A DNA stretch of 64,000 bases from Seiridium cupressi (lineage: Eukaryota; Ascomycota; Sordariomycetes; Amphisphaeriales; Sporocadaceae), in contig JARVKI010000028.1 of the NCBI GenBank assembly GCA_036674765.1, forward strand, positions 310,001-374,000, written 5' to 3'. Below are positions 28,117 to 60,129 of the stretch, in pieces; positions within the stretch are counted from its first letter, which is position 1; each line of letters begins with the position of its first letter. Under the pieces are notes generated by a model. That model worked only from the letters and a program-made list of their open reading frames with translations. It ran no database searches and was not told the DNA's origin. A program made the translations under genes and the position numbers.

Positions 28117-29721
28117 TCAAGGCTCACTCCACATATTCTTGTGATCTAACGGCTTCAAAGGATATTCGTCACTTGTTGTGGTATTTGACTCCTTGTCCTC
28201 AGAAACCCCATGGGGCTGGCGCTTATCCGTGGATTCGTCATATCTCGAGTTTAAAGGGTTAGACTTGCTCCTAGACCTAGCCCCGGGCCAGCTGACCGAC
28301 TTGATTGTTTTGATGGAAGGTATCAGCTTCCCGAACCATGGCCGTAAAGGCGGTAATGAGCCGCAGACGATAATGCAGGTTAACTCGATCATTGACCAGA
28401 CTATGGCATCGACATTGTCGACTTGTGACATATTAGTAGAACTCAACACGGCGAGCTATCGTCGGGTAACTTACATGTGCTATCAAGCGTTTTGCTAAAC
28501 TGCACTAGGTATTTAAGTCGAATCATACTAGTAACCATGGCGCTTATTGGTTAGTGATTATGAGCGGCAGGATTGAGGGTGATGACTTACAAAGAAGCGA
28601 GTGCGAACATAAGCCCAACACCAACCCGCTTCCTACCGCTGATCTGAAGTTTTCGCAGCTCCGGGATCGGTAGTAGTATTAGGACAAGGTCCTCCACGAC
28701 TGACAGGACAGCTCCGCTGTAGCCGATAGCATTGACATCAAGGCACTTCCCGGCAACGAAGCGATTCCAGATAGCCTCGACTGGCGTGCACTGGAATGCG
28801 ACAACGAAGGTAAATATCATTAACGAAATGCAGCAGTAGCTCAAGCATGCGTAGCACTACAACATCCGGAATCAGTCTTTGCTTCTTCTAAACTTCTTGA
28901 TGAGGTGTCGGGGTTTCAAAATCATGTTTCAGGAGCAGAACTACCGAATCAAGAACCGGTAAACTCCCAAAACAGGCGATACGGGGCTTGAAATAACTCC
29001 GGAAGTTGCTTACTGCCAGCCGGAACCATCTAGCCGGAAATACTCGCATGTAGAGGAAGATGACGGACGCCTTGGCAATCAGTTTGACCCAGGTATAAAA
29101 GATTTCGACCGTGTAGAACATCTGCAGAAGTCGCGCCGCCTTCGTCACGTAGACGTCCCAAAAATGAAGCCCGAAGCCCAGGTCCGCGCTTGCCAATTCC
29201 AGACCGGCACCACCGAGCAATACGATCGTCGCAAAGATGGCCGTCCAGTCGTCACTCCAGAGTCGACCCGTCAACTGCAACCGCGCTGTGCACCGCGCTG
29301 CGACGACTGTGGATGACAGAATCAGCGCCACCAGCGCTACCGTTCGCACTTCATTGACTCGAGACTCTTTAGGATAGGCAGCGCACATGGACATCAGCAG
29401 ATTGCCGGAGGTGACCTGGTCGCTGAATTGGCACGACGTCTGCACGCAATTCGATAGGCTGGCGAGAATAGTGTTGTTAGTGCACACACAATCCTCGAGC
29501 AGCGTTATGTTCGTCATCGGACAATTGCCACCCAGGATGCCCTTCACAACGCATGGTAGCTACGTGGCCGAAGTTAGCCATGCTTCTTGCCTCAATCCAG
29601 TCAAGGGCCCACTTACAGCACATTGAGGAACAGCTGTAATCATGTCGTTCACAGACTGGGCAAAGGCGCCGCTCGCCCTCAAGGCGGCGTAGAGAAGGGT
29701 AAGGCCTGTCGTCCGTCGCAT
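28117..29721 (-). CDS. CFEM-domain, Pth11-like seven-transmembrane receptor; carries an introner-like intron
   Basis: Five exons: 29721-29617, 29559-29014, 28856-28591, 28542-28475, 28421-28117; about 429 residues. A signal peptide (first 22 residues) is followed by a CFEM domain with the eight-cysteine spacing (PQCALPC ... NCP ... CVC ... NC ... SCQ), then seven predicted membrane helices and a basic/polar cytosolic tail. This is the Pth11/Rhodopsin-like fungal GPCR family, linked to surface sensing. Frames across all four introns agree. Intron 2 (29013-28857) is unusual: it is nearly the same sequence as introns in two unrelated genes of this window (see the separate entries). Nothing suggests that the gene is broken. 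Confidence 0.88.
28857..29013 (-). mobile_element. Introner-like intron copy A (157 bases) in the CFEM receptor gene
   Basis: Begins GTAAGCAACTTCCGGAGTTA and ends CCGGATGTTGTAG on the minus strand, splitting the gene in phase 0 before a TGC codon. It aligns without gaps, about three quarters identical by eye, to the 157-base intron at 48481. The 5' CAACTTCCGGA and 3' TCCGGATGTTG are near-perfect inverted repeats, and TGTTTTGGGAG pairs internally with CTCCTGAAACA. Confidence 0.88.
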
Positions 29722-31049
29722 CGTGTTTCTGTCTGTATACTGTGAGATCCCAGGACGCAAATCTCGATATCGACGGCGAGCGTCCAGCTGACCATTAATA
29801 TCTCTGATCAACCAGACTTTCAATGTCTGATCATCTCAGCTCTGGCCCCCCTTGCGTCCCGAAAAACCCCACAACGCATCTTGACTTCACCTTGCGAGGG
29901 CCATGCTACCGGACATTGAGTTCTCGAGCATATCCACGAACGCCCGGTCCGGGTGGGTTACATCGCATCACCAGCAATGCTAGATTCCAAGACTTTTCCG
30001 GTTGCGGGCTATGCGCCGACTGCGCTTTGCCCCGTATTCTTATTGGGATGAGTGCCTGAACTTAAAACAGTTCCCACGTGGCTGCATCTGTACCCACCGG
30101 CACTCTGAAACCGTTGTTCTAGACCAGAGGAGGGGCGGGAGGTCGCGTGCACTTGCGAGTAGTTCTCGTACTTTTTGTCTTAAAGGCGGGCCGATCTTGG
30201 TCTTCCAAACTGTCAAGATCTTAGACTGAGCCTGGGAGATGACGCAAAGCCCGCTGTCAGTATCACGAGAAGACCGGACAGAATGATCTAACAACGCCAG
30301 CCGAGGACGAGCACGAGGACGCCCGACGCTAGTCCTTGGGATGATCTTTGGAGCGAGGAATGATTTTCGCATAATCGAGCGCGCTATGCCGGTAAGGGGA
30401 ACGTGTCGCGGTTCACGGCCGATTCGTCTCACCATCCCGGAATACGCTCAGACCACAGAAACGCTACAGACGGGTGACAAGAGGTCAAAGCGTATCGACC
30501 TGCTTCAACGATGCCACCTGCAACGACTTTGTCGAGTGTGTCACATCCGATAGTCTGCCATTCATGTTCGCTTTATTGACAATTATGTCGCCGGCAGTTT
30601 ACTGCAAACTCGTCGAGGGCATCATGCACGTGGCAAACTTCGCTTGCAAGCGTTCCAAGCACGGTATAACATGAAAATAACCGAGGCAATATATTGGGCC
30701 GCACCTTAAAACTATATCAAGTGGGCCATGACTTTTCTACTGGTGGGGTGGAGCTTGTCTAGTGGCAAGATAGTACAGTATTATGCTACCATTACAACCT
30801 ACTCCAATCAGTCATGGACTTACACCACATTCACAGCTGCTTCTTCATAAAATATCAATTTCCATGAGTTACCAGATTTGTGGCGTTGAACACAGAATGA
30901 ACGCCATCCGTATATGTTTGAACCCCCAAACATGCAACCCGACGGGCTTGCACTATACCACAGCATAATGTATGCAAGACAACGAGGGGAGAATAAGAAG
31001 AGAAAAGAGAAAAACGAATGACAGTGCCTCTAATCCTAAAGCACTAAAT
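29722..31049. other. Intergenic region, no supported gene
   Basis: About 1.3 kb upstream of the receptor. A minus-strand frame at 30040-30435 is Arg-rich and has no recognisable motif. I see no gene. Confidence 0.45.
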
Positions 31050-31310
31050 ATGTCAAGGACTGACTAGCCCTCGGCTAGGATGAAAGCTGCGAAATATAGG
31101 AGCTGTATCATACTCAGGAAAATCCCGAGAATTCCGCCGGGTCCAAGCCACCTCTTGATGTACAGCTTCGCTGCCAACAAGGCCGCCATATGAGTGCATG
31201 AGGACCACAACTAATTTCCCTTCCACTTTCATAGGACTCTCGAATTTGACTGACACCGCGGTCGCATCATTAGTTAACGACCTTGGTAAGAAATAGAGTT
31301 TCTCCCGACC
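31050..31310 (-). pseudogene. Fragment of an alpha/beta hydrolase
   Basis: An open stretch encodes KLVVVLMHSYGGLVGSEAV, the strand-nucleophile-elbow region (HSYGG) of small fungal alpha/beta hydrolases, preceded by a charged helix-like segment. Neither the N-terminal strands nor the acid/His half could be found on either side, and there is no start codon context. It is probably a decayed remnant next to another broken gene. Confidence 0.5.
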
Positions 31311-31567
31311 AGTGAGACTCGGCAGCAGAATAAAGGAAAAATGTGCCAGGTGCTCTCGTGGCGCTCACCATTTGTGGCTGCTTTTAACGCTACTGAAATC
31401 GATGTGTTTGGGCCCTCAGGCATTCTTCCATCATTTCTTCCTCCCCCGGTCGCTCCGCCAATACTCCGCCAACTATCGACAAATATATTGCGGTCTATTC
31501 TCGTGTGCTATGTAAACGAACTTACCGTGCAATGCCGTCGGAACGTAGAAAGCAGCCATGCTTTGAC

Positions 31568-32502
31568 ATGTCTTCTCTGCCCGATAAATCAAAGGCAGAA
31601 ATTGATTTTCTCGACACCTCTTTTTTCGTTCTGATAAGCCTGATCCGCCCCAACTACCAGCACCGGGCGCAATCCTCGAACAGTATCCAGACCGTGAGGG
31701 AGGCGTCGTCAAGTATGAGAACCTGAATCTTGTAGTCAAATTCGGGAAATCTACCTACGTTAGGCTGGAAGAAGCTCAAACAATGAGAGCAGTCAGACAC
31801 GCGTTTCTAAACGATGAGGTCCCTGTGCCCGAAGTTTTCGGGTGGAGGAAGTATGGGGAGAAAAACTTTATATATATGAGTCTTATTCATGGGGAAACAC
31901 TGCGGGAGGCATGGCCAAAGCTCACTGAAGCGGATAAAGAGTCGATCTGTGATGGTCTTGCACATATTGTATGAGCGCTAAGGCAGGTTTCGCAGGGCTC
32001 ATCCGACACTTTTATCGGTACATCATTTTTATCTCCCTCTTAAACCCCAGGTATGCTAACCGTACTAATAGGATCTGTTAGTCGTGGGACTGTGCAAGAC
32101 AGGTTTTTCCAGGCTGATTATGAGGACGGCCCATTTACCTCCATTAAGTCATTTAATGATTGGCTGTTCGCAGCTGCTACTCGTACTAGGCCCGGACCAG
32201 AAGGAGTCACTGGCCCTTATCAAGACCTATTATCTGATACGGGCCCTATCTATTTCACCCATGGAGACCTCACCCTCGGGAATATCATCGTCTCAAGTAT
32301 GGCCAACCCTCGAAGAATTCTGGGAGTTGTGGATTGGGAGCAGGCTGGTTGGTATCCAGCGTACTGGGAGTATTGTAAGCTACTTTACGGGGTGGAGTAT
32401 AGTCATGAATGGCGTAGTGAAGGATGGGCTGAGAAGGTTATGGAACCGTATACGGACGAATGGTTCGCGTTCGCAGAGTACTCTTTATGGCGGTGTCCGT
32501 AA
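31568..32502 (+). pseudogene. Aminoglycoside-phosphotransferase (APH)-family gene with frameshift and nonsense codon
   Basis: Protein-kinase-fold phosphotransferase of the large fungal APH family (substrate unknown). The N-terminus reads MSSLPDKSKAEIDFLDTSFF and then shifts by one base in a run of six T (31621-31626); the other frame continues PDPPQLPAP ... LEQYPDREGGVVKYENLNLVVKFGK, the expected glycine-poor loop. The frame then runs to TGA at 31972-31974, while the same frame after it (ALRQVSQGSSDTFIG) is family-like and leads to an intron (32018-32071). The rest holds the catalytic YFTHGDLTLGNI loop and the GVVDWEQAGWYP metal-binding Asp. So both lesions interrupt an otherwise complete gene of about 290 residues. 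Confidence 0.75.
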
Positions 32503-34202
32503 TCTTTACCATTTTAGGATAACGCTTACCCCCGTACGGCGGACTAGAGTAATTTTGTTCCCGGAGCTTTCGCACGATCTCGTCATCATCGTGGCCAGGT
32601 TCTGTATCGTTCGAGACGGTTTGCCTAGAGTCATGGGACATGGAACAGCTCGACGTCGTATCTTCGAGAAGCTTCGGAATGTCATTGCCACGAGCTACCA
32701 CCATTCAGCCGTAGTTACTCAAAGATATGTGTCTAGATGCAGCCATGCGCAGATGACTTTCCCCTACACCTCCATCGGATTGAGGAAGAGTATGAACACG
32801 TTGGGTTTGTATGCTTTGTGTAGCAGGATGTTGAGGAATTGGTACGAGGATATGTCTGTACTCCTGGCATTGTCCATCGGAAGCTTGTTTCTTCAGAGAA
32901 AAAAACGGCACTTGAATACAAAACAAGATTATGGTTGGGTTAAGATGAACTCATATTTGTTAGGGAAGAAAAATGATCTAGATGATGTCCTGGAGAAGCG
33001 AGTACGTCCTTTGTGACTGTGGCCGAACGCGACAGTCATCTTGACCTAGTAGAGTACTCCATCCAATTCACTATCTTTTTCTTCCCCTTTTCTGCTTTCT
33101 GCTTTTACTCAATCTTTGAAATCGTCCATCAACTGGTACGGGATTCAAGTTTCTGAAACGAGCTATTGTAGCGCCTATCCACTATGAGACAATTTCAGGA
33201 CCCGTTAGCAAATAGAAGCGTCTGTCATACCCGTACCACATCCAACTTACTTTGGACTCGATTCGGTTTCTTGCACAATGGTTCGTAACAAAGAACGAGT
33301 TTAAGTTCAGCTTAGCACAGCCCCCCTGAGCTGCTGCAGGTGCCGATTAAACCTGTCACTTTCGGCTGCCAACTGCCTTGCTGAAAGCTTCAAAGCCAAG
33401 ACCTCTAACTCCGCTCAAATTGATTCGTGTATGCAAGAGGCTTGCTCTACGACCAACCCCTTGTCAAATTGAGGGGAACCCAGTAGGATGCGTGTGAATC
33501 GTATAATCTGAAGGATAGCAAGCGAGATGCGGCTGCCTTAGTCGAGGATTGGCGAGCTGTAGGATGCAAGGGAAGAAAATTATTGTTCCTATCTTTGTCA
33601 TTACAAACCGGGTAGTTCAAGGACATACATGTAATAAATGGTCAATACGTTTACACTGATTGCTGACTAACAACAAATCGTCGTGCTTGAATACCCAATT
33701 TCATGATACGAGGATATGGGATAACAACTTGTGATGGAAGGCGAAGGTAGTGGTGAGCATTCTCCATCTCGTAAAATACGCGTAGCGGGACTGGTTATGG
33801 TTCTATCATACTGAAGCCGACATTAGCTGACTCATTGGCTATTGGCCTTCACGATGTGCGTTCCAAATAAGAGGGACAAGTCTATCTTGGTAGTTCAGAA
33901 TCAAAGCTGAAGAGGGCAAACTAACTAAGGTCTGATTCAGTAATATTTCGCCGCGGGAAAGGCTTCGAAGCTTGCACTGATAAGCTGCCCGGAATTTTGA
34001 TCAGTATATCAGATCAAAGCTGAGTGATATCATAACGACCGAAAACTGCTTAAAATCAGAACCCGAAGTTGCTCCCACAATGATTATCTCTAGTACTCAA
34101 AAGATCCCCGTACAGGCTCAGCGAACATAATAGGCATTGAATCCTACGCGACGAAACATACCCTGACGACAAAATCTCCGCATGTGGAAGTAATAGAACA
34201 AG
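32503..34202. other. Intergenic region, no supported gene
   Basis: About 1.7 kb. A 310-codon frame that begins inside the APH-like gene (32084) and ends at 33016 is a shadow frame: its first 140 residues are out of frame with the conserved protein and the rest has no recognisable content. Confidence 0.45.
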
Positions 34203-34661
34203 ATGTCCGACCTTAGTCTTCCCGCCCAACTAGCCAACTTCAGAACTCTTCTCAGCGAGACCACCGAGCGCGACCGCCGCGCTGAGAGGACCATTTCCGA
34301 ACAAGTCTCGAAACTCATGTTGCTGTCACCATTTTCCTCTTTTCCAACATCTGCCTCTCGCCTTGCCGCCACTTCACCCTCAAGTGCGGCTGATGCCCAG
34401 CGCCAAGAATGCCTTCAGAAGATGATCGACCCCCGCAGACGACAGGTTCAGCGTTGGTCTGCCATCATTGAAGAAGCCCTGGTCTTGGCGCCACGGTTGG
34501 ATCTGGCCGGCGACCGGCTCAAGGCACGCGATGTGAGACAGACGATGTAAGTGTATATGGACAAGTTGGAAGATGCGCAGGAAGATTTGGAGACGAGAAC
34601 CAGGTTGTTAAAACGGTCGCAAGGTCTACAGATAGGAGTACAGAGCCGGTCCAAGGAATAG
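34203..34661 (+). CDS. Small helical hypothetical protein with an internal stop codon
   Basis: The frame from ATG 34203 gives 115 residues of helical, Arg/Gln/Ser-rich sequence and stops at TAA (34548-34550). The same frame then continues immediately as a further 36 residues of coiled-coil type (MDKLEDAQEDLETRTRLLKR) to TAG at 34659-34661. This suggests one protein of about 152 residues interrupted by a CAA-to-TAA-type change. A GTAAGT word overlapping the stop (34546-34551) could instead be an intron donor, but no sensible acceptor was found. Family not recognised. Confidence 0.5.
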
Positions 34662-35138
34662 CACCAAAGCCGCACACTCGCGCCGTCCGGGGAAGATGGT
34701 ACAATCGCCTATTGGACCGACTCCGGTATTCCATACCTCAAGTTGACCTTGTATATAGAAAAATAATTGCTGTAAATTGGATGTAATTGTCTTCGGCCGG
34801 AACGTTTTGACCGTTATAGCAAGTAAAATCGTGCACGTTGCAAATCGGTAGTACGGTAGGTATTGTATTATACAAGGGTACTGATTCCTGTCTAGAGACT
34901 GAAATGGACGAATGGATTACAACTCGCCTCCCGTGTGCAGTCACACATTTGACCGATTATGGGCCAGGCCGAGACAGAGATCGAAGCCACCTGATGCACG
35001 CTTGCCTTCCGTTTTGTAAATGCACTTTTATAATCTCCTAGGACATTTTACACTCAATGGCCCACCATCGGATTGTTGTGACCAGTCCACCAGGTCGAGG
35101 ATGTATATTCGTGTCGAACTTGGGGGAGATGATGGTGT
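34662..35138. other. Intergenic region, no supported gene
   Basis: About 480 bases between convergent genes; serves as 3' region for both. Nothing recognised. Confidence 0.45.
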
Positions 35139-36700
35139 TTAACCCATGATCATTCCCTTCATGCCGGCGAGGTCGCCCTCTTTCGCTGCGATTTCAAAGT
35201 AGCCATAGATAATGCTAGGGAGGTGTTAGCGGTCGAGAAAAGTCAAGGTGTGCAGTATAAGGTGTACTTACGTCACAGCGAGCAGGGTACCAGTACCCGA
35301 GCCCAAGGCTCCCATGAGGTCGCTGGCCACGGAGAGCGCACCAATGCAAGCGCCACCGAAAGCAGCGGCAGTGGGAATAATGCGCTTAAGCTCACGGTAC
35401 ATTGATGCATCTCTGTGGCCCGCCATAATAAGACCCTGGTCCTTGAGCTGCTTGGCAACATCACGCGGGCTGGAGCCTGACACCTCAATCCAAGTCTTGG
35501 AGAAGACAGCGCAAGCAGTGAGCATGTAGCCGATATAGACAGCGGTGTGAATGGGGTCGAGAAGAGCGTCCTTGAAGTTCAACGGAGGGGACATGTAGTA
35601 GACCAGGCCAGAAATTGCTGAGAGCTGGGCGGATCCCTCCTTTGCCTCCCAGACGCCGAAGAGACGGACAAGGAGGTTCTCAGAGAAGCGGGAGTAAAGC
35701 ATCTGGCTGATCAAGAAGATGTTGGAGGATAGAGCAGATTGCAACATGATGGGCATGTTGGAGGTGTAGAACAGACGGACGGGGTAGGAGCCACGAGCAC
35801 CACGTTGACGGTTGGACTTGACGGGGATCTCGACGCGGAAACCCTGGAGGTAGATGACGGCAGCGAAAACAGCCAAAGTAGCAAGCAAGTTCATGATGTT
35901 AGGGAGGTTCTGGCGGTAGAAAGCCTCCTGAAGAGCTCGCTGCTTGTTGGGCCAGGTCATCAGCAAGTGAAAGAGGTTGATAACGGCACCCTCAAATTCA
36001 GGGCCACGACCGGTGTTGATCGATGTAGGGGAGAAAGCCTTCCACATGATGGACTCGCAGATGTTGGTGGCGATGAACAGAGAGATACCGCTGCCCAAGC
36101 CGTAGCCCTTCTGGAGGAGCTCATCAAGAAGAATGACAATCATTCCAGCAATAACGAGCTGCAGGATCAGAAGGAAGACGATACCAGCGCCGAGGTCACC
36201 GGGGGGTCCGTAGAGACCGCTGAAGACGTAGACAATCGCAGTACCGGCGGAGAGGATGATGGCCAGCAGCTTCTGGGAAGTCTGGTACAGTTCGCGGTCC
36301 GACTTCAAGTCCAGGTTGACGTCCAGAATGTGGGTACCAGCGAGGAGCTGGAAAACCATACCAGAGGTGATAATAGGCGTGATACCAAGCTCCATCAGTG
36401 TACCGCGGTTACTCGCCATCATCATGCGCAGCCAGTATAGAGGGTCGGAGGTGTCGGACGAGACAATGCCGTACAGAGGCATTTGGCTCATGACCAAGAA
36501 GACCAGCAGCGTCAAAGCAGTCCACATCAACTTTTGGTTGAAGGGAACCTTTGTCTCAGGCTGCTGCACCTCTGGCAGGAAGGCCACGAAGGGCTTCGTC
36601 AAATCGAGGAACCGTACTGCATGGCGCGAAAGGAGACAATTAGCTGGTGACCGGCAAAGGATGCAGCTCGTTGGTGATGATTGCACTTACAGCTCGACAT
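35139..36700 (-). CDS. sec61: Sec61 alpha, ER protein translocation channel subunit
   Basis: Pore-forming subunit of the Sec61 complex in the ER membrane, 476 residues as expected. Exons: 36700-36691 (only 10 coding bases), 36616-35272, 35214-35139. Ten membrane helices are visible. Signature segments: [16 protein letters not shown] at the N-terminus, the plug/helix 2 region with [17 protein letters not shown], the lateral-gate loop with [19 protein letters not shown], the cytosolic loop [19 protein letters not shown] that contacts ribosomes, and a C-terminal [10 protein letters not shown]. The first intron follows the tenth base, common for fungal highly expressed genes. This is a single-copy housekeeping gene and serves as an anchor for synteny with the adjacent tRNA gene-modifying enzyme. 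Confidence 0.97.
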
Positions 36701-37351
36701 TGTCGCAGTGTCAGAATATTATGACAGGATGAAGAGAAAGAAGGAGGAACAGCGAACGGCGACACTGTTGTACCCCAATGAGGACTTGGGAGGCCGCGAT
36801 TCGATTGCTTTAAAGAAAGGGATGGGGAGGTTAGAAAGGAGAGAGGCTACGTCGCGACGGAGACAGATCTGGCTTCAGTCCAAAAAAAGTGAGCCCCAGT
36901 CGCTCCCCAATTGACGATGTGTCCCCTTTCCCTGGAATTAGTGGGCGCCACGTGACCAGCCTCCGAGCTAGACCCTGGACGCGAACCAATTGGTGATTTT
37001 TTGGGAGCTTCGGCAAGCTTCCAATTGAGATTTATGCGGAGATTAGCTCAGGGTGTTATTCCGTGCCGGAAGGGCCAGCCCCAGCCCAAGCCATGGCCCA
37101 AGCCCAATTTTCAGCCTCAAATTGAGTGTGGTCAGTGCAGAGTAGCTCATTTCTAATTGGTTCGTTCCACTCTTTAGGGGTCCAGCTTTTGGCAGCATTG
37201 GGCAACGGCTACAACTCCAGGGCCCCGTTGGCTGGTCTTGCCTTGTCCAGGTGCAACGTGTACGCAGAATATTGAAGAAGCACAAAGACGCAGCCCATGA
37301 CTTTTGCGCCTGCGCATTACAGTACCTTCTTTGCGTGCGGTGTCGAAGTTC
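36701..37351. other. Divergent promoter region between sec61 and the isopentenyltransferase gene
   Basis: About 650 bases. It contains a GCCCAAGCC-type short repeat tract at about 37072-37110 and CCAAT-like words (36989, 37021). No gene seen. Confidence 0.45.
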
Positions 37352-42725: not shown

Positions 42726-43887
<1,162 letters not shown>

Positions 43888-46541: not shown

Positions 46542-46604
46542 CAGGAATACAGGAATACAGGAATACAGGAATACAGGAATACAGGAATACAGGAATACAG
46601 GAAT
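46542..46604. repeat. 8-base minisatellite (CAGGAATA)n
   Basis: Seven complete perfect copies of CAGGAATA plus a partial eighth, directly after an alternating TA tract and a short AATTTACAGC. Located just past the 3' end of the flavin prenyltransferase gene; likely length-variable. Confidence 0.95.
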
Positions 46605-46670
46605 TCGCCTGCCAACACGATCTGAACCGTTTCCGTGCAGCAGTTATTTCTATGTCATCATGAGCAATTA

Positions 46671-47858: not shown

Positions 47859-49630
47859 ATGTCGCCTTCGTCGAATACATCCATGGACTTCCGTTCATTC
47901 GTCCAAAGCCTTAAGGATGATGGAGATTTGGTGGAAATTAACGAAGAGTGCGACCCCAATCTGGAGGTTGGCGCTATCATAAGGAAAGTGGTCGAGAATA
48001 ATGAAAAGGCTCCCCTGTTCAACAAACTGAAGGGCCAGAATGAGAATGGATTCTGGCGCATTCTTGGCGCACCAAACTCATTGAGGCCGAATCCCAAGCA
48101 GAAGTATGGACGAATGGCTCGTCACCTAGGTCTGGAGCCCGTGGCTTCGATGGAGGAAATCTTGGACAAGATGATTGCAGCCAAGACAGCTGCTCCTATC
48201 CCTCCCCAGATCGTGGACAGTGGTCCTTGTAAGGAGTTCAGACTGACTACAGATCAATTCGATCTAAACGAGTTGCCTGCACCCTTTCTTCACAAAGATG
48301 ACGGAGGGAGATACGTCCAGACCTACGGCATGATGATTGTCCAGTCTCCAGACGGGAAATGGACCAACTGGTCAATCTCCCGGGCTATGGTGCATGGGAA
48401 GAATGAGCTCGCCGGGGTGGTCATCAAAAACCAGCATATCTGGGAGATACATCAGATGTGGAAGAAGGAGGGAAGGGACAGTAAGCAACTTCCAGAGTTA
48501 TTTCATGCCCCGTATAGCCTGTTTCGGGAGTTCGCCGGTTCTTCATCAGGTGTTTCTGCTCGTGAAACATAGCTTCTAACTCCCGATGACTCTCCAAGCA
48601 TTTTTGAAGAAGCATTTACTGACTCCATGTGTTGTAGTGCCTTAGGCTCTGGCTTGTGGTGTACCACCAGCTGCTATCATGGCTGCGAGCATGCCCTTAC
48701 CTTCGGGCGTTTCCGAAGGCGAGTACGCTGGCGCGCTAGTCGACTCGCCGTTGCAGGTTGTGAAGTGTGACACAAACAACCTCTTTGTACCTGCAAATTC
48801 CGAGATCGTCTTCGAAGGAACCTGCTCCGTCACAGAAAGAGTGCCAGAGGGACCATTTGGTGAAATGCATGGGTACGTGCCCCAATGAACCACTCCAGAA
48901 TTGCAGCATAGCTAACATTCCCTCTAAGATACGTCTTTCCTGGAGAAGCCCGCCTCGAGCCCAAATATGATGTCAAGTTGATCACACACCGTAAAGATGC
49001 GATTATGCCGGTCTCCAACTGCGGAAGATTGACAGACGAGACTGCAAGTGTAGTGACAAGGGTTCGGACCACATCGCTAACGTAACATAGCACACTATGA
49101 TTGGGACCCTCGTAGCAGCCGAAATAGGATTCCTGCTGCGATCGCATGGATTGCCTATCAAGGAATCGTTCTCTCCCTTCGAGTCACAAGTAACTTGGGC
49201 CGCGTTACAAGTCGACACTGAGAAGCTTCGCGCAATGAAGACTTCCTCTGAGGAATTCTGTCGACGGATCGGCGAAATCGTCTTCGGGAATAGGGTCGGA
49301 TCCCCGATGCATCGTCTCGTCATCGTTGGTGATGACATTGATGTATACGAATTCAAGGATGTCATCTGGACTTTCTGCACCCGCTGTCGACCCGGTATGG
49401 ATGAGTACCTTTTCGAGGACGTCGCAGGGTTTCCGATGACTCCTTACATGTCCCACGGTAACGGACCAAGAGCTAAAGGTGGAAAGATCGTTTCGGATGC
49501 ATTGCTACCAGTGGAATACACCACTGGCAAGAACTGGGAAGCGGCAGACTTCAAAAGTTCGTTTCCTGCAGATGTGCAGGAAAAGGTGCTTGCCAGGTGG
49601 GAGAGTCTCGGGTATGCTTCTGAGAACTGA
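47859..49630 (+). CDS. fdcA: UbiD-family phenylacrylic/sorbic acid decarboxylase (Fdc1-like), interrupted by a nonsense codon
   Basis: prFMN-dependent reversible decarboxylase of cinnamic, ferulic or sorbic acids. Exons 47859-48480, 48638-48872, 48929-49043, 49091-49630; 503 residues if read through. Catalytic residues known from A. niger Fdc1 are present: the Arg in NWSISRAM and the Glu pair in [11 protein letters not shown]. Intron 1 (48481-48637) is introner-like copy B. Directly after it, the frame reads Met-Pro-stop-Ala-Leu-Ala, where the family has Pro-Trp-Ala-Leu-Ala, so TGG has become TAG (48643-48645). An alternative acceptor at 48669-48670 would keep frame but delete the conserved PWALALGVPP segment. 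Intron 3 has a GC donor (GCAAGT at 49044). Shares its promoter region with padA. Confidence 0.87.
48481..48637 (+). mobile_element. Introner-like intron copy B (157 bases) in the fdcA-like gene
   Basis: Begins GTAAGCAACTTCCAGAGTTA, ends CATGTGTTGTAG, is exactly as long as copy A and aligns to it without gaps. The internal stem TGTTTCGGGAG / CTCGTGAAACA is kept. It splits a codon in phase 1 (after GAC A), whereas copies A and C are in phase 0. It is followed by TG-CCT, again a TGC word at the exon start. Confidence 0.9.
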
Positions 49631-51454: not shown

Positions 51455-52828
51455 GATGGACGATAATCAGATGCGTTTCGAACGCTTGATTCTCGCGCTG
51501 TGTGCGGGGGGCGACACCTATGTGCCCATCGAAGTGGAGGTGCAGAGCTTTGGCATGGATCAAGGATCCCTGCCGTGGGCCAGTGTCAAGATCCAACCTG
51601 TGGATTCCCGCGAAGACGTTCGTCGGAACGGCCAAACCGATAGCGTTTCGACATCACGGAGGTAACTTACATTAGTTGTTTAGGGTTGTACCAACCGTTT
51701 GAGTGGTTGGGGGTAGAAAAGGCACGGTCCTCAACTGGGTACATATTACTAAATGCAGTAACTCCAACGGCGTGGTGCAGTTTTAATTGGGCCGCTTGTC
51801 GCAGCAGATCGTGGAATGCCAAATTCTCGGATATCTCGAAATAGCGTCGGCTTGATGTGTGGCCTGCTCAATGACATGCACCTGCAAGGATCATAACCCA
51901 GCAATCGGTAAACATCAAGCCACCTTGCTCCACGTGTCCGCACGTGTCCGCATCGTACTGTAGCACTGGACTTTGATATTTCGACAGAAAACTGAACGAG
52001 GCATGGCTGAAACATATGCAGTGAGTGTAGCGATTATATCATTCTTTTTAATAGTTTTGATATGAAAACTTCAGTGAGCGCTATAGGATAGGATGTTTCA
52101 CAACTACGTTAGTCAGTCGTATTGCCTTGGTTCAACAGTGACTACAATGTACCCAGGCGTCTCGGATATCAATACGAGAGGTAGTTGCCTGGCTCCTCGG
52201 ACAGTGTTTCTAGTGACTCTATTTGATGGCAACCGTTCCGTCTCAATTACCCATCCGCTAGTGACCACCGTGATCTGTCGCCTCCTGGAGGGCTTCTGTT
52301 TCGTAGAGCCAAGTCATCATCATTAAATTAGACTCTATGTAAATGGATAGAAATCAGCATTGGTGTCGAATAAATGGTACCAGAGGCATCTGCTCTATAA
52401 CAAGTGCTAAGCGAAGAGAAAGCAACAAGAACGCCAACTATCGTCATTGTCAGCAGTGAGACACGCTTAATTTGTTTGTATTGGTGCAGTGCATTTCTCA
52501 TAACCTTTCCGGAGACTAATTCACAAAGCTCAGCTCTTACTAGCTGAGCACTCCTACTGCATTTATTTTAAACCATTGATTATATCTATGAAGAAGGGAG
52601 ATAAATGCCTAAGAAAAATACATGTACATGTCAGATAACATGCAGCGGGACCGGCACAGACGCTAGACTAGTGCTAGCAGCCGCTAACAGTGCGGCGTCG
52701 GCGTATAGCTTGGACCTTTCAGTTTGACAGCCGAATTCCATAAAACAGACGTTGTACATCACTCTTACGCTGCCAACGTCAATTATGCTCGAAAACCCTG
52801 TCAGAAGTTCTAATAATCAATTTTTACC
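51455..52828. other. Intergenic region with tandem CACGTG words
   Basis: About 1.4 kb between divergent genes. It contains CACGTGTCCG twice in tandem (51931-51950). Short frames such as 51749-52015 (-) and 52093-52326 (+) look random. Confidence 0.45.
51931..51950. repeat. Tandem CACGTGTCCG duplication with two E-box palindromes
   Basis: Two adjacent copies of a 10-base unit, each carrying CACGTG, the palindromic target of bHLH factors. The 10-base period places both sites on the same DNA face, upstream of the monooxygenase gene by about 480 bases. Confidence 0.7.
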
Positions 52829-53305
52829 ATGGCGACACAAAACGAAATCGTGATTGCGAAAGCGAAAGCCGAAGACGTTCACGACATTGAGGCCATTGTC
52901 AAGGCCGCTTATTCAAAGTATGTCGAGCGCATCGGACATCCCCCAGCCCCAATGCTCGAGGACTACATTTATCTGCTCGAGTCGCAGGATGTGTATGTTC
53001 TCCGTGTAGCTAGTGACAGAAAAGTACTTGGATCTGTTGTCTTGGCGATGGACGACGATGAGAGAGCAATCAAGATCAGCAATCTCGTCGTGGGTCCATC
53101 AGCCCAAGGCCGAGGATATGGGCGCATATTGATGAATCATGCCGAACACGAAGGACGACTGAGAGGAGCAAAAGCCGTGGTACTCTTCACTAACGTTAAG
53201 ATGTACGAAAATATTGGACTGTATATGAAGCTGGGGTTTGTTGAGACAGGACGCCGAGTCGAAGGGCCATATGAGCGCGTGTACTTTCGAAAAGAACTAG
53301 TATGA
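52829..53305 (+). CDS. GNAT-family N-acetyltransferase
   Basis: Single-exon, 158 residues, one GNAT domain. The acetyl-CoA binding motif A is clear: ISNLVVGPSAQGRGYGRILM (Q/R-x-x-G-x-G/A at GRGYGR). The C-terminal strand-helix YENIGLYMKLGFVETG is also typical. The start is the first ATG with a CCATGG context. Substrate unknown; the small single-domain form matches fungal GNATs acting on amines or small molecules. Confidence 0.9.
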   Translation: MATQNEIVIAKAKAEDVHDIEAIVKAAYSKYVERIGHPPAPMLEDYIYLLESQDVYVLRVASDRKVLGSVVLAMDDDERAIKISNLVVGPSAQGRGYGRILMNHAEHEGRLRGAKAVVLFTNVKMYENIGLYMKLGFVETGRRVEGPYERVYFRKELV

Positions 53306-54226
53306 CGATCTCCATCTGATGCTCAAGACAACATAACACCCCCGCTTCACTTTCGATCCTATCTTGGGGTAATTGTCGGGTGAGGGAAGAATCACGTCCA
53401 GTGGCATGATGATATAACGTGTAAAAATGGAGATATGAGTGTCGTGGGACAGCTGCTGGCCAGACGCGGGAATTAGGGTTTCATCTTGATCGTCTTCGTC
53501 TTCAGCATTTTCTTGGGCAGGAGAAAAGAGGGGAGGCAACCCCAGTGCGAGTTGTTCACGCATTGAGAAAGAGTTCACAATTGAATCGACATGTCTACCA
53601 CTGCCAATGGCCACGCAGGATACCTAGTGCATTGAGCGTGATATCTTGTGGAAGAAATAATGGGCAGTGTGATTCCATTTCGTTCACATAGGATGTTCCA
53701 TTGAAAAATCTGCTTTGTCCCATGATAAGCAACCCGCAGTATGCTATAATGACCGACGCCTCCTATGTGGGCCAACCAGCTTGATATGATACTGCGGGTA
53801 CGTGGCTTTGGGCACTGAGTTAGAGTGCACCGGGCGACCTATCCAAAGAGCCCAAGCCGCAACAACAGGCTGGCCACTTGCTTGTGTTCTGCCCATTGTG
53901 TACCTTGCGTCCCTCACACGTAAAACTCCGAACTGACTTTCTGTAGATCAGCCTTTCGTCAAACAACAACCTGGTCCAGTCCACCATAACTGTCCCAAGA
54001 GCCTCACCTGTTGCCCCTTAGTGGCCAGCTGCTCTGCCTGTGAGTTCAGACTGCTTCCTATCCGTCTTTCGATTTCCTTATCACCGGAAAATTCGTTTCC
54101 TTGTCCCCTCGTTCACCCTCCAATTTCCTCTCTCGATCCTGGAGGTGTCCCCACTGCACACTGCATGGACTGATTTCTTTGGTGCTCACAGCTACTTGGA
54201 CACTTGAACAACTTTCGAAGCCAAAA
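53306..54226. other. Intergenic region, pyrimidine-rich leader of the RBR gene
   Basis: About 900 bases; the last 300 are pyrimidine-rich, as in long 5' leaders or promoters of fungal genes. No gene supported. Confidence 0.45.
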
Positions 54227-55695
54227 ATGGATCTCCATGATCAGGATCCCGTTGACTTGGATTTGGCCCTCCATCTTCAGCAGCTGGGCTTGGAGACTTT
54301 CCAGCCTGCTTCACCGGCGCCTGTTGGAAGAGATGATCTAGCCGACTCTCAACAGGCCGCAGGAGTCTGCCAAGATGGTATGTTGCTAATTTTGACCCCC
54401 CAAGTTAGAAGGGAGAAGAAAAAGACTGATCTAACAAACCCAAACAGACGCCGAGAGAGCCAGAGACGACGAGAACGCTTTTCATCTCCCCCACAGAATC
54501 AGTCAAGAGGAAGTCGAAGCCCCGGAACACATGTACGAGTGTGTTGCTTGTAGAGAGGAGTATATTGCTGGCTGTACTCTCCGTGCCCCTTGTGGTCACC
54601 ACTTGGTAAGCAACTTTCGGAGTTATTTCACGGGCCTTAATAGCCTGCTTCAGGAGTGACCACCTGACTAAGCATTTCAGCTCTTGGGCCATGGTCTCCA
54701 ACTTGCGATAGCTTCTCAAGCATTGAAAGATCGGATCACTGATTTGAGGTGTTGTAGTGCACAGATTGCATCCGACGCCAGATGGAAGCATCACTCGTTA
54801 ACAGCACGTTCCGCCCCCTGACCTGCTGCTCGCGAACCATCCCCATCGAAGAAATGCCCAACTTGGCAGTCGGCTTCCTCTCAGACGATCTTTTCAGCAG
54901 ATATCTAGAGAAGAAAGTTGAGAGGGATACTCTGCATAAAACCTACTGCAGTAACAGTGAATGCTCGGCCTTTATTCCGCCTGCTCATATTACCCACCAT
55001 CATGCCACCTGCCCGAAGTGCGACACAATCACTTGCTTTTTCTGCAAGAAAAGTAAGCATGAGGGCGCGTGCCCAAAAGACGAGGCATTAGAGAAACTTC
55101 ATGCTCTAGCGAAGAGAGAAGGGATGCAACTCTGCCAGGGATGCCATGAACTTGTTGAGCGCACAGAGGGCTGCTATCATATGACGTAAGTCTTTACCTT
55201 CTACTGCCCCTCCTTTTTATTCCTTCTCCATCGTTATTTTGCTGTCTGGTTTGCTTTTTTTCCTTCGCTTTATTAAGATCAAAGTTCTCAATGCCATTCT
55301 GGCGGCTCTTCGGCCTTGCGATACCTGATTCTCATAAGTCGCAGTTGAGTCATTTTTACTAACCTCTTCTATCCACTAGGTGCCTCTGTGGATTTCAGTT
55401 CTGCTATCTCTGTGGCGACAAATGGAAGACATGCCAATGTACCCAATTCGAGGAGCCAAGACTCGACGGCCAGGCCGAACCCGAGAACCACAGATGCAAC
55501 CATCCTCGATGGGAACGGCTAAACGGCCGTTTCATATGCGAAGTCTGCTATGATACGATGGCTGGTTTCATCTTTGAGTGTGCTTATTGCCAGTTGCGAT
55601 CTTGCCGAAGATGTCGCGTCATGCATGAGACTAGGGCTTATCAACGTTATGAGTATCTCTTATTAAGGACTCATGCAAGGAGACGAATCGCTTGA
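54227..55695 (+). CDS. RBR-type E3 ubiquitin ligase (RING-IBR-RING2); carries an introner-like intron
   Basis: Exons 54227-54377, 54448-54605, 54758-55185, 55380-55695; about 350 residues. After a Gln/Asp-rich N-terminus comes RING1 (CVACREEY ... CGHHLCTDCI), interrupted by intron 2 between Leu and Cys of the HHL-C site, then an IBR domain (CSNSECSAFIPP ... CPKCDTITCFFC ... HEGAC) and RING2 (CQGCHELVERTEGCYHMTC), whose Cys after HMT is the expected catalytic residue that carries ubiquitin, then CGFQFCYLCG. This order defines RBR ligases such as Ariadne- or ITT1-like proteins. Intron 2 is introner-like copy C; intron 3 is 194 bases and unrelated by eye. All joints keep frame. Confidence 0.9.
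54606..54757 (+). mobile_element. Introner-like intron copy C (152 bases) in the RBR ligase gene
   Basis: Begins GTAAGCAACTTTCGGAGTTA and ends TTGAGGTGTTGTAG; the first 25 bases match copy A at all but one position. It keeps CCTGCTTCAGGAGT, CTAAGCATTTC and the GATAGCTTCTCAAGCATT block shared with copy B. It is phase 0 and followed by TGC, as is copy A. Confidence 0.87.
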
Positions 55696-56573
55696 GCTAT
55701 TTGCAGTATTGGCGAGCACTTGCGGATGCATAAGCGGCATCACTATACCTAGGTTCCATGGTGTAAACTCTAGCCCTTCTCTCTCTCGGCTAGATCAGAA
55801 AAGCACGGTTTATCGTATAAATCCTTGCTTAACATGACGTGATATGTTCCTATAACTCCTTGCCAGATGAACAATTCTCAACGACCACTATCCGCACATT
55901 CGCTCCATCTATCTCTTTGCTCAAAATCTTGCCTGGTTTCCATATTGTTTCAATCCTCAATTCCATCCAGCATCACCGGACTACACTAGACGCTATAATT
56001 TTTGCTGCCCGTCGAAGGTTTCGCTTCCACTCTGTTGATGCTCCCGAGTCACCCAACCTCTCTTCGCATTGTAATCTTCTGGTCCGGTTGGAATCTTCGT
56101 TCTATCAACTTTCGGCTGTTACGGGTGTAATGCTGATATCGGCGCTCTCCCCTTCAATCTTTGCTCAATCATAAACGTAATCGTTTTCGCTACTAGATCT
56201 AGCTGTTGACACTTCAAGATCGTGGCGAGCCATATCATAACAAACGCTTTGTTGATCAAGGAGCTTCTGTAGTTGTTACCATTCGTTCACGTGGGTCTTT
56301 GCTCATAATTGGGAATTGTCACGTATAGTGACGATTAGGTGTCAAGGATCTCGGTCCCTTCTAGATATATTACTCCGGTCGAACCGGATCAAATTGGACT
56401 GGAATTTTAGTTAGCTTTGTACCGCTCCTTGTTGACAACACGAATGGTCAACATAAACCGTAACCACTTTCCGAAAGCCCCGTCCCTTTACCAAGGAATA
56501 AGCTGTGATTATCCATTGCCCCTTAATTTCCACTTGCTTGGAAAACCGAGGATAAAGTCTAATATTGCAGACA
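55696..56573. other. Intergenic region, no supported gene
   Basis: About 880 bases. A 111-codon frame at 55839-56174 (+) has a Ser/Phe/Leu-rich composition without motif. Probably 3' flank and promoter sequence. Confidence 0.45.
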
Positions 56574-57712
56574 ATGTCTACCAACCAGAACACCGTTTTC
56601 ACGCCAGGGTATAGGCACAAAGAGCCGTACGGTGCTCCTCTACTGCAGATAGATGCAATTCACAGTATACACTATGAGCAATACGGAACAGAGTCTAGCC
56701 TTCCTAGTAGGAAGCTTCAAAGCCCATTCAATTGACTATGCATATCTTTGACCACTGCTAGTGATGCAAAATGAAAGATGTGTTTACCCAGTCGTATTTC
56801 TCCATGGTGGGCCCGATGCGCATACAAGCTATGGCAACACAGTATTCTTCAATCCCGAACTACATCGTGTGGTCCTATTTGACCAGCGCGGGGCGGGTAA
56901 ATCTCTTCCTAGACTAGAGGAGAGATTCGTGAGAACACGACAAATCGTCTTTCTGGAGACATTGAGAAGATCCACGAGCATCTCTAGATCAAGGAGTGGC
57001 ACATGATATTTGGCGGATCTTGGGCACGACGCTGGGTCTACTGTATACTCAGACCTACCCCGAGCGAGTCAAGTCACTCGTCCTACGCGGCGTCTCGACA
57101 ATGCGCGTGGCTGAGTTGGTTCACTCACGGAGAGGACCAAACGGTGCTGCCAAGTTCTACCCGGAGATGTACGAGCAGTTCATCGGGCTCCTTCCGGCAG
57201 ATGAGAGAAAAGACCCGATTGCAGCATACTACAAGAGGCTGACTTCGGAAGATGAAGAGGTGTTGTTCTCGGCGGCGCGGGAATGGAATCGATGGGATCT
57301 CACAATGGGATATTTGAGATATGCTCCGGATGCCTATACCAGGCTCGATGATGCTCCGTGGTCCGTGACTCACGCCAAGCTGGAGGCGCACTACTTTGCA
57401 CATGCAGCTTTCCTCGAAGAGGGACAGCTATTAAGTGGACCGAATATTGACAAGATGAAGCATATACCAGGTGATTTCGCGTCCTCCAATGTGTTCCGTA
57501 TTTCATCATCTGTATTTGAGAATCACCTGACAGCTCCGAGTGTAGGTGCTATAGTGCAAGGTCGATATGATCTCACGACACCGCCTCAAATAGCATGGGA
57601 ACTCCACATAACCTGGCTTAATTCAACGGTTTATCCTATAGGTGCTGCTGGACATAGCGCAACAGTAAGCGATGATATTACACGCGTTTTTGCGCAACAT
57701 GATGGTCGCTAA
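56574..57712 (+). pseudogene. Proline iminopeptidase (prolyl aminopeptidase) gene with frameshifts and a stop
   Basis: Alpha/beta hydrolase that removes N-terminal proline. Exon 1 (56574-56706) starts MSTNQN and contains IHSIHYEQYG; after a 55-base intron, FLHGGP (oxyanion) and VVLFDQRGAGKS follow in frame. Then the frame changes near 56930-56945: the ENTT ... GDIEKIHEHL segment lies in another frame, ends at TAG (56978-56980), and continues KEWHMIFGGSW. A missing G after the GGSW nucleophile motif (near 57029) shifts frame again into TLGLLYTQTYPERVKSLVLRG. The remaining 230 residues, with GRYDLTTPP (acid) and GAAGHSA (His), are open. So at least three lesions lie within 100 bases in a gene with all catalytic motifs still legible. 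Confidence 0.78.
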
Positions 57713-58012
57713 CAGCGTGCTGTAGGAGCCGCCAACACTAACAAAGCTGGTCGAAGTCTGTGACGCATTTGCCAGTCTTAAACAATTAGCCCCCGTACCT
57801 GCTCCATGGTATTCAACACTTGTACCGCTCCCTAAGGTTGGACGAGACATCTCTGTTGACTCGCGTCTACATAGATTATACTGGGTATAGCGGTGTAGTC
57901 GCGGCCAGTATGTTAGACTGGCTCATTCTCTATTTCTTCCCTCAAATTCAGAGGGTCACAACCATCCTCCCTTGACCACATAACCATGTATTACTCATGG
58001 TCTTGGATGCAT
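57713..58012. other. Spacer between convergent genes
   Basis: About 300 bases of 3' flank; no gene seen. Confidence 0.45.
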
Positions 58013-60129
58013 CTATTTCGCCTTGACAGCTTCAATGTCAGTGCGAATCTGCTGTTCCACCTTGCCGACATCGATCGTCTCCACACCCTGACGCACATGC
58101 TCCACGTCAGGGACAGACGAGTGCTTCTCTCCTTCAAATATAGCATCGATCTCCTCGAGGGTCTTGTTTTTTGTCTCTATCCAGAAGACGGCCTGTTTAA
58201 ATATGGGTCATTAGTCCGATACCAAGCACATTCGTCAAGTTCCAACTCACTATGAGGACAATGACAATGATATCCCACGACCCGTTGATCATATATATTT
58301 TCCATCCAATGTTATCGAGGCCAATAGGCATGACGAATACCAGTACCATTCTGAATAGTGACTTTAGCGGAGATCTTACATCAAGGAACACAGGACAGGC
58401 TTACGCAAGTGCATTGAGCATTAGTTGGGAGAAGGCAACTCCATTCGCTCGAATTGAGTAGTTCATGACCTCTGGAGGATACAGGTAAAGTAGCGGCGTC
58501 CATGCGATAGAGTAGAACCCCTGGAAGAGGAACATCACTGCCACATCACCATAAATGAGGCTCGATGACGCTCCATCGGGGTCATCGGCGTACATCTTCG
58601 AAAGACCGCCGATAATGAACAAGCAAATGACCAGGAGACACTGGGTCATCAGCGCTGTGGGCTTCCGGCCCCATTTGGCGGCCAGGTGCGTACCACCGAG
58701 ACAACAGGCCAAACACCAAACGTTCAATACAACGTTCTAATGCGGAAGTACTTGTTAGACTAGCCATACTCGTGGGTAGGAAGAAGACTCACAGCCTTGA
58801 GCTGACTGAGGGTATCTGTTATTCCTGCCGTTTCCAGCTCTGATCCTAGATAGTAAGAAGCGATGATATTCCCAGCTATGCATGAGAATGGTCCGGCGGA
58901 CATGCCAATGAGTAATCTCTTTCTCGCAGTGGGCGTTCTGATGATTTCCTTCGGACTCATGGTTCGGCCATCTTTCTTTTCCCATTCCAGAGTGTCCAGG
59001 ATCTCCTTGTCTGTTGCTAATATTCAGTAGTCTGCGCTTGGAGTAGATTCGACGTCGGAATACGTACAGATGGTGACAGCCACCGGATCCGACATGTCTC
59101 CATTTGAGTTGGTTTGGGCAACAACGAGTCGCGCTTCTTCGTAGTGCCCCTCGTGGACTAGCCAACGTGGTGATTCTGGACTAGGTTCGCGTTTGGATTA
59201 GAAGGTCCCCGGGATAATTCATGAGCCTTTTCGACCTTAAAAACTCACATGAACGGTAATATAATGATACAGAGCAGCGAGAAAATGCCCTATAAAACTC
59301 TCGGTTAGCCATTTCCTCTTCGGGTATACTAAAGATGTTATCGGGAGATGAGGATGATGTTTTAAGAGATGAAACACCTGATCCGGAGATTTCAACTCTC
59401 GAGACAGACCATAAATGGGAAAAACAACTCCGAGTTCTTACCTGGAATAATGATGGTGCCCTCCAAGCCCAGGTCGATTGCCATTCCCCCGTACCCAATG
59501 TGATTCCCGCAGCAATCAATGCACCCACGCTGAAGCAGTTTAGTAGTTTCCTTGGCGACCCTGATTTCGAGGTACTTACTAATAGAAATCATTGAGTAAT
59601 CCAACACCCCAAGCTCGCCAACGGCTCGGGAATGTTTCCGAAAGATAAACTCCACCTGCGATTCCCGAAATCGCACTTCCAAACCCAAGGATGATGCGGG
59701 CTACGACAAACATGGCAATATTCTGTGCCGCAGTTTGCAGGATCACACCTATGAGAGTGATGGCGCTGCCATGGAAAATGGCCGGCCGGCGACCAAACTT
59801 GTCGGTCAGGACACCAGAGAAAATTGGCCCAAGAAAGCCACCGATGAATACCGAGGCCGTATTTAAGCCAGTCGTCGCCGGAGTGAGCTGGAAGTAGTCG
59901 GTATACGACGGTAGGATGTTAAGACCGTTCAGCATAGAACCGTCATAACCTCCGGTCTAATAAAGCAGTACCATCAACATCAGTAGGTTCACTCACTCTC
60001 GAGAGAACAATGCGCACAGCTTACCGTAGAGTTCACAACGGAACAGATCATAAGCAGGCAAGAGAGGATGACAGTAGACTCTGGAACCCAGGCGGGTAGC
60101 CAAGTCCCGGTAGGAGACTTTTTCAACAT
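58013..60129 (-). CDS. MFS sugar transporter (lactose-permease/hexose type); carries a diverged introner-like intron
   Basis: Nine exons fit in frame: 60129-60025, 59956-59580, 59529-59442, 59289-59249, 59180-59068, 59016-58793, 58736-58405, 58350-58251, 58192-58013; 519 residues. Motifs: TGGYDGSMLNGL in helix 1, DKFGRRPAI in the 2-3 loop, PESPRWLV at the end of helix 6, KWGRKP in the second half, GFYSIAWTPLLYLYPPEVM in helices 9-10 and WIETKNKTLEEID after helix 12. This is the fungal lactose-permease/hexose-transporter-like branch of sugar porters. Intron 3 (59441-59290, 152 bases) is a diverged member of the introner-like family. No lesion was seen. Spacer of 670 bases separates it from the M81-type gene. 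Confidence 0.9.
59290..59441 (-). mobile_element. Introner-like intron copy D (152 bases, diverged) in the MFS gene
   Basis: Begins GTAAG-AACT-CGGAGTTGTTT, which matches copies A-C after two small gaps; then TATGGTCTGTCTCGAGAGTT parallels TATCGCCTGTTTTGGGAGTT of copy A. It also shares ATCAGGTGTTTC and CTCCCGAT with copy B and AAAACAT in place of GAAACAT. Same length as copy C. Ends TTTTATAG rather than TTGTAG, and is followed by GGC rather than TGC. Likely an older insertion. Confidence 0.6.

Follow-up and report, generated by a model that had tools for sequence, protein, structure and literature searches.

Four introns in the window, a 64,000 nt stretch of contig JARVKI010000028.1 from Seiridium cupressi, belong to a family of homologous introns dispersed through the genome, and the members of this family are almost certainly introner-like elements. 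The lineage that carries them is Seiridium in the Sporocadaceae (Sordariomycetes), and introner-like elements are thereby extended to the Sporocadaceae. The explanation that we favour as a whole, at a probability of about three in four, is that introner-like elements are copied from RNA and inserted at a cut made just before a TG, with site rules specific to each subfamily. How new introns originate is a long-standing question.

Four homologous introns in the window

The four introns interrupt different genes (flanking exon bases are given with a slash at the insertion point). I1, a 157 nt intron of the main type (28857..29013, minus strand), lies in phase 0 in a gene for a CFEM-domain membrane protein with the flanks GGCA/TGCT, and I2, also of the main type and 157 nt (48481..48637, plus strand), lies in phase 1 in a UbiD/ferulic acid decarboxylase gene with the flanks GACA/TGCC. 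I3 is a diverged main-type copy of 152 nt (54606..54757, plus strand) in phase 0 in a gene for an RBR (IBR) zinc protein, flanked by CTTG/TGCA. I4 is a 152 nt member of a sister type (59290..59441, minus strand) in phase 0 in a sugar-transporter-type MFS gene, flanked by CCAG/GGCA. In our own gene models the host of I2 spans 47859..49630 (plus strand), with an in-frame TAG shortly 3′ of the intron, and the host of I3 spans 54227..55695 (plus strand), contains three introns counting I3 and encodes 350 aa.

The coordinates, strands, lengths and ends given for the four introns in the original prediction were all correct, as was the exon start TGC directly 3′ of I1, I2 and I3. The host identities that it proposed (CFEM, UbiD-type decarboxylase, RBR and MFS) are supported by homologues, the CFEM assignment through PF05730. 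End-to-end homology had also been claimed, and in all six pairwise global alignments of I1 to I4 the score (19.5 to 89) exceeded that of every shuffled control, the best of which reached −3.5 (200 shuffles per pair), which rules out chance similarity. Pairwise identities were 0.68 to 0.78. A scan of the window against Rfam returned no matches.

A genome-wide family with a sister subfamily

The 45.4 Mb genome was searched three times for the main type and once for the sister type. After merging of the listed places, the main type occupies at least 125 distinct sites, 64 on the plus and 61 on the minus strand, spread over 66 contigs, while the single search for the sister type listed 12 places, I4 included. 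The whole-genome search that had been proposed thus found copies far outside the four genes. The total listed for both types is 137, or about 3 listed per Mb, and the thousands of copies that had been expected were not seen. I2 alone gave 40 scored matches spanning essentially its whole length (104 candidates), and its relatives elsewhere in the genome include copies at 99, 97 and 92% identity; a family with 99% identical copies probably includes young ones. Patterns for the 5′ and 3′ ends matched 125 and 121 times genome-wide, with 100 of each listed, and these counts are lower bounds for diverged copies; the reversed patterns matched 0 and 4 times. When an ordinary intron served as the control query, it matched itself alone in the genome, and so did a divergent copy used as a query for a third subfamily. 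I2 had no matches among plasmids, and the 25-base 5′ pattern had none in viral or prokaryotic contigs. A search for 5.8S rRNA gave no match among the 39 scored out of 1314 candidates.

For the site analysis, 115 profile matches were reduced to 98 by collapsing those with identical inner sequence, a step that also dropped one genuine separate copy (L002) that is 99% identical to I2. The 98 comprise 77 complete main-type copies, 12 sister-type copies and nine partial or diverged copies that were excluded from the site counts. The sequence itself was inspected at some 80 to 85 of the 125 listed main-type sites.

Splice signals and coding context

Among the 77 complete main-type copies, 76 start with GT and 76 end with AG, and the columns of the branch site CT(G/A)A(C/T) (CTRAY) have a conservation of 0.82–1.00. 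Splicing was judged by joining the exons in silico in the 80 copies that had flanks. Read in sense and spliced, a copy scored above its antisense reading in 67 cases, above its unspliced reading in 73 and above the best frame-shifted join in 55. In an open-frame test the true join was favoured over both frame-shifted alternatives (p = 8e-8 and 2e-5), and it was ahead of both in only 43 copies. By codon score a shifted join equalled or exceeded the true join in 25 of the 80, and 15 had no positive score. Because of these last three results, some copies may sit in untranslated regions, between genes or in decayed genes. Most copies are in sense orientation to coding sequence, and on this evidence we infer that the copies are spliced GT-AG introns.

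The joins in the host genes are seamless. In each of the nine hosts compared, the spliced protein was contiguous with its relatives across the junction. This was seen in 12 of 13 aligned homologues for I1, in 119 of 120 for I2 (120 listed of 695) and in 14 of 14 for I3; the junction was gap-free in the two alignments listed for I4 and in the two or three listed for each of four further hosts (L017, L055, L090 and L084). The ninth host (L019) encodes a HET-domain protein with paralogues in the same genome. Of 20 paralogous stretches, three without the motif were dropped, and all of the remaining 17 are contiguous and lack the intron. The TG is in place in 15 of these 17 empty paralogues, which rules out the possibility that it is a part of the element that replaced host bases. 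That reading is also countered by the Cys codon right after I3, whose residue is invariant in the homologue alignment, and by the residue at the I2 junction, which is Met in 40 and Val in 68 of the 120 homologues listed of 695.

Insertion sites of the two subfamilies

The main type very probably has a genuine preference for the site (C)(A)/TG. In the 77 complete copies T is found at +1 in 76, G at +2 in 68, C at −2 in 52 and A at −1 in 46, and the dinucleotide TG follows the copy immediately in 68. Information content is 1.90 bits at +1, 1.42 at +2, 0.60 at −2 and 0.48 at −1, and at most 0.33 bits at all other positions within 15 bases. AG is found upstream of just one copy. When five registers were examined for a target-site duplication, no repeated word exceeded expectation. 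A heuristic set of ordinary introns, small at the outset (14, with TG in two) and then widened to 27, had TG in four and T at +1 in ten; the latter figure means that the preference for T may be partly general. The TG share at four thresholds was 4/27, 4/22, 3/13 and 1/6.

Among copies with close relatives 23 of 26 have C at −2, compared with 13 of 25 among the most isolated ones, with TG remaining steady, and sharing of the −2 base climbs with identity over all pairs, from 0.27 to 0.80. The TG may therefore be kept partly by selection, or older copies may follow another rule on the 5′ side than younger ones. Sharing of flank bases between nearest-neighbour copies was no higher than under permutation, which rules out inheritance of parental flanks through microhomology. 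Very similar pairs nonetheless share the −2 base more often.

In the sister type, CAG precedes the insertion in 10 of 12 copies, and I4, a member of this subfamily, has an exon flank unlike those of I1 to I3. An AG duplication would here be indistinguishable from an AG site. Homology between the subfamilies extends from end to end, and different site rules appear to govern where each is placed.

Inverted repeat and RNA structure

At least five end-to-end pairs can form in 60 of the 77 main-type copies, compared with 30% of shuffles, and, taken one by one, 31 copies have a significant near-terminal inverted repeat. The inverted repeat of the consensus is not significant (p = 0.14) and no covariation was found in the near-terminal repeat; RNAalifold on alignment A2 gave a change on both sides in one of 22 pairs. 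Folding of the 77 copies gave a mean z of −1.33. Given the missing covariation and the consensus p value, the structure is no proof of an RNA route.

Origin of the copies

The reading of these introns as introner-like elements, put forward in the original prediction, is borne out by the many homologous GT-AG introns in unrelated genes with unrelated flanks and seamless joins. Under this explanation whole spliceosomal introns would be the units of multiplication, and each insertion into a coding exon would found a new intron with the mRNA unchanged. Intron RNA, either excised or unspliced, would enter transcribed DNA where it is cut just before TG and then be converted to DNA. Copying through RNA is the route that we favour slightly. 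The sequence-selective site, for its part, can be read just as well as the mark of an endonuclease or transposase as of this route.

Two alternatives place the multiplication in DNA. Duplication of segments or genes that carried their introns along would account for the similarity of the introns and nothing more; the host genes are unrelated and the flanks differ even between near-identical copies, which refutes it and leaves it with next to no probability. The copies might instead be short, non-autonomous MITE-like DNA transposons that carry splice sites, mobilised by a transposase whose blunt cuts at CATG-like sites leave no duplication. The palindromic appearance of CA/TG and the near-terminal complementarity described above would suit such elements, and introner families of other eukaryotes are, in the survey text available, mostly DNA-element-like (PMC9860276). 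We consider this unlikely, as duplication is absent in all registers tested, the inverted repeat of the consensus lacks significance and most copies are in sense orientation in coding sequence, where a DNA element would be expected to be common between genes too. Moreover, outside the site itself the flanks of the 77 copies have nothing in common, so there is no sign that the copies are embedded in a longer element.

The tether model of Fekete and co-workers supposes that random double-strand breaks capture intron RNA or cDNA as they are repaired, so that no enzyme selects the site. The seamless, duplication-free joins, like those of the Hypoxylaceae/Xylariaceae stwintrons (PMC12403724, in part), speak for it, but breaks at random would leave unexplained the T at +1 in 76 and the TG in 68 of 77 copies, and the stwintron papers report, in the portions at hand, no exon bias (PMC8469720, PMC12403724); we regard it as rather improbable. 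Reverse splicing of the classical kind, in which the spliceosome puts introns into mRNA or DNA at proto-splice sites, is doubtful too, since the main type sits at CA/TG with AG upstream just once in 77 despite the end-to-end homology of the subfamilies. A more specific form of the RNA route, joined to a split of the family by targeting factor, is speculative when taken as one package. A nuclease would nick the non-coding strand and so free a 3′ end that reads ...CA opposite the TG, the intron RNA would be reverse transcribed from this end, and the second strand would be closed with a looser preference for CA; the insertion would thus be blunt, seamless and in sense only. The split of the family into a CA/TG lineage and a CAG/ lineage would then have followed from a change of targeting factor. 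If so, a targeting rule and not the spliceosome would place new introns here.

In the partial texts consulted, fungal introners are inserted seamlessly, either at random or at AG/GY, a description that does not single out the inserting machinery (PMC8469720, PMC12403724, PMC4457414, PMC9860276). Two homologous sister families with different site rules in one genome offer a natural comparison, since the site is set by whatever distinguishes one from the other.

Comparison with known systems

Our literature searches found nothing on introners in the Amphisphaeriales, nothing on introners among Seiridium genome and intron papers (judged by title) and no fungal-intron paper among the matches to the word GTAAGCAACTT (judged by title). 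No counterpart of the CA/TG rule was found in the portions of the fungal introner literature available, or in the available text of the eukaryote-wide survey (PMC9860276).

According to the sections available, the introner-like elements of the Dothideomycetes (Fulvia fulva, Dothistroma septosporum and Zymoseptoria tritici) are, like those here, canonical introns in unrelated genes that form families of differing age, with near-identical copies at 98–99% identity there and 99% here (PMC4457414). Their site preference is AG/GY (as cited in PMC8469720). The main type differs from them, as far as descriptions alone can be compared, in its CA/TG site and in belonging to another lineage, whereas the sister type resembles them in its preference. 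AG/GY does not define all fungal families, since the introns of the Hypoxylaceae are unbiased (PMC8469720, in part).

The sister stwintrons and cropped sister introns of the Hypoxylaceae and Xylariaceae, as described in the extracts available (PMC8469720, PMC12403724), likewise have hosts in the Xylariomycetidae, number dozens to hundreds of similar introns and lack a duplication; they also carry near-terminal inverted repeats, which the copies here may share. They are nested [D1,2] introns (207 nt in one example) or canonical derivatives (93 nt in one example) with no exon bias; the introns described here are 157 nt long with a plain donor and biased sites. Introners across eukaryotes are similar end to end and biased to genes, as are those in S. 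cupressi, and the ascomycete families among them are outliers without TIRs or TSDs, a condition that the main type shares in having no target-site duplication (PMC9860276, in the text available).

Genome-wide distribution of the intron family

The original prediction of four homologous introns in unrelated genes was upheld, both in their positions and in their relatedness from end to end. They are found at 28857–29013 (minus strand, I1) in a gene for a CFEM protein, at 48481–48637 (plus strand, I2) in a UbiD decarboxylase gene, at 54606–54757 (plus strand, I3) in a gene for an RBR (IBR) protein and at 59290–59441 (minus strand, I4) in an MFS sugar transporter gene, and in each of the six pairwise comparisons the score exceeded those of all 200 shuffles. 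The ends of I1, I2 and I3 are shared as had been described, with each starting GTAAGCAACTT, finishing TTGTAG and followed by TGC in the exon. Four copies within 31 kb is a local excess.

A search of the genome (45,361,241 bases in 228 contigs, window included) with the 157-base I2 revealed that copies are abundant beyond these four genes. Among 104 candidates, the 40 that were scored all matched approximately the whole 157 bases, with 80 to 100% identity. A pattern for the 5′ end (up to two mismatches) had 125 matches and its reversed version none, while one for the 3′ end (up to three mismatches) had 121, against four when reversed. Merging 100 of the 125 and 100 of the 121 pattern matches with the 40 scored I2 matches gave at least 125 distinct sites on 66 contigs for the main type, the family of I1, I2 and I3, and a rough capture-recapture estimate from the best-matching ends was 117. 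I4, which represents a homologous sister type, matched 12 places, made up of its own locus, ten of nearly full length and a 97-base one. The more diverged I3 used as query found only six, itself included, and an intron of the ordinary kind from the RBR gene, used as a control query, had no match besides its own locus. Together, the listed places of both types number at least 137, or about 3 per Mb. The true number is higher, because diverged copies escape the searches and the two patterns have 25 and 21 matches beyond those listed, but nothing indicates the thousands of copies that had been suggested.

Splice signals and divergence of the copies

Among 77 complete main-type copies, 76 start with GT and 76 end with AG. 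The branch site reads CT(G/A)A(C/T), the A being 15 bases from the intron end, and is strongly conserved, as is most of the remaining intron sequence. Mean pairwise identity is 0.78, with nearest neighbours reaching 0.975, and a copy outside this set (locus L002) is 99% identical to I2. There are two large clusters, of 38 and 27 members, with the same flank in both.

Unusual donors, GCAAGC and GTCAGC, were seen in the copies at L072:1501 and L078:1501. The copies at L087, L047, L076 and L064 are partial or altered, with the 3′ AG of L064 displaced from its usual place, and possibly represent decay into ordinary introns. At L056:1326–1658, two copies are separated by 20 bases, which would be a very short exon. 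Two full or partial copies approximately 0.2 to 2.4 kb apart were also found at each of L065, L071, L073, L041 and L023, the last having one of each type.

Host genes

In all nine hosts compared, the protein is contiguous with its relatives at the junction. This was the case for a serine dehydratase (L017), a beta-galactosidase (L055), a biotin carboxylase-type protein (L090) and a sugar transporter (L084). In the RBR protein, the residue after the I3 junction is a Cys that is invariant in 14 homologues, and the UbiD protein is gap-free near the I2 junction in 119 of 120. The MFS protein is also contiguous, with a gap of 2 residues a few positions before the I4 junction in the better of two alignments listed. 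The L019 host, a HET-domain protein, has many family members in the same genome that match uninterrupted across the intron position; 20 paralogue stretches were fetched and all 17 with the motif were contiguous. The CFEM protein was contiguous in 12 of 13 homologues, the exception being a deposited S. cupressi gene model (P0148) from which precisely the 22 residues that come after I1 (28791–28856) are missing; the other 12 retain them. A gene prediction that paired the I1 donor with a second acceptor, 66 bases downstream, would account for this, and that acceptor is either a misprediction or an alternative in-frame acceptor.

Just past I2, the UbiD gene contains an in-frame TAG at 48643–48645 (A before the intron and TG after it, then CCT, TAG), where 116 of 120 homologues, including that of S. 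unicorne, have Trp. A-to-I mRNA editing occurs in the sexual stages of Sordariomycetes, and the gene is either a recent pseudogene or carries a putative editing site of this kind.

Coding context was examined in 80 copies flanked by 600 bases or more on either side. Open frames were longer at the true join than at the two frame-shifted joins (p 8e-8 and 2e-5), with the true join exceeding both in only 43 of the 80. A codon score, for which 15 long ORFs of the window served as the training set, was higher for the sense spliced reading than for the antisense (67/80), the unspliced (73/80) and the best frame-shifted join (55/80), and the sense score was not positive in 15. All three phases are represented in the 52 copies supported by this score (20 in phase 0, 15 in phase 1 and 17 in phase 2).

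Insertion site preference

In the exon downstream of the main-type copies, T is found at +1 in 76 and G at +2 in 68 of the 77. Upstream, C is at −2 in 52, A at −1 in 46 and CA in 34, and 40 have the full site (C, then A or T, the intron, then TG). Information is at most 0.33 bits past two bases on either side (largest at +7, −11 and +3), and no duplicated word beyond expectation was detected across the intron in five registers and five lengths. In a heuristic set of 27 ordinary introns, TG follows in four and T is at +1 in ten. Sister-type copies are preceded by AG in 11 and CAG in ten of the 12 members, I4 included; where their own AG end is intact (11 members), the next base is G in eight and TG is never found. 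The genome thus has two site rules, one for each of these homologous subfamilies.

TG is present at the site in 15 of the 17 HET paralogue stretches, and C(A/T)TG in five. As these intron-free relatives keep it, TG is mostly a property of the site. However, C at −2 falls from 23/26 in copies with close relatives through 16/26 to 13/25 in the most isolated, while T at +1 and G at +2 are unchanged, and the −2 base is shared by 0.80 of 59 pairs with identity above 0.9 but only 0.27 of 556 pairs below 0.7. This weakens a reading in which the flank reflects insertion alone, and TG may also be maintained by selection.

RNA structure

At least five of the first 25 bases pair with the last 25 in 60 of the 77 copies, compared with 30% of dinucleotide shuffles, and the mean folding energy z is −1.33. 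A 15-pair end stem was formed in 85% of cells across 33 copies, versus 26 to 43% when slid, with no covariation in the stem among these copies. Taken singly, 31 of the 77 copies have a significant inverted repeat, and that of the consensus is not significant (p 0.14). Structural evidence therefore does not decide for or against an RNA route.

Lineage and relationship to known introners

The best named match of the RBR host is from Seiridium cardinale (90% over 70% of the protein; 77% in the full alignment) and that of the UbiD host from Seiridium unicorne (97%). Those of the CFEM host are from S. cardinale (97%) and S. cupressi (92%, or 100% rounded over aligned columns). These matches place the genome within Seiridium or very close to it, with S. 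cupressi as a tentative assignment based on one protein. S. cardinale is classed in the Sporocadaceae, Amphisphaeriales, Sordariomycetes. One S. cardinale protein (P0001), deposited as a proline iminopeptidase, includes both an IBR and an alpha/beta-hydrolase domain and is perhaps two genes fused in annotation.

Judged from the sequences, the identity of the family as introner-like elements is confirmed. Its novelty lies in the site preference and the lineage. Among possible mechanisms of multiplication, an RNA-based one is slightly favoured. In the accessible portions of the literature, ascomycete introner families are described without TIRs and TSDs (PMC9860276), the stwintrons of Hypoxylaceae and Xylariaceae are reported to have no exon bias (PMC8469720, PMC12403724), and an AG/GY preference is given for Dothideomycete elements (as cited by PMC8469720). 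To the extent covered by those portions, the published descriptions set the main type apart, and a family with a CA-TG rule may already have been described. On the same basis, the main type resembles the ascomycete introners and stwintrons in its seamless insertion but differs from them in its CA-TG site.
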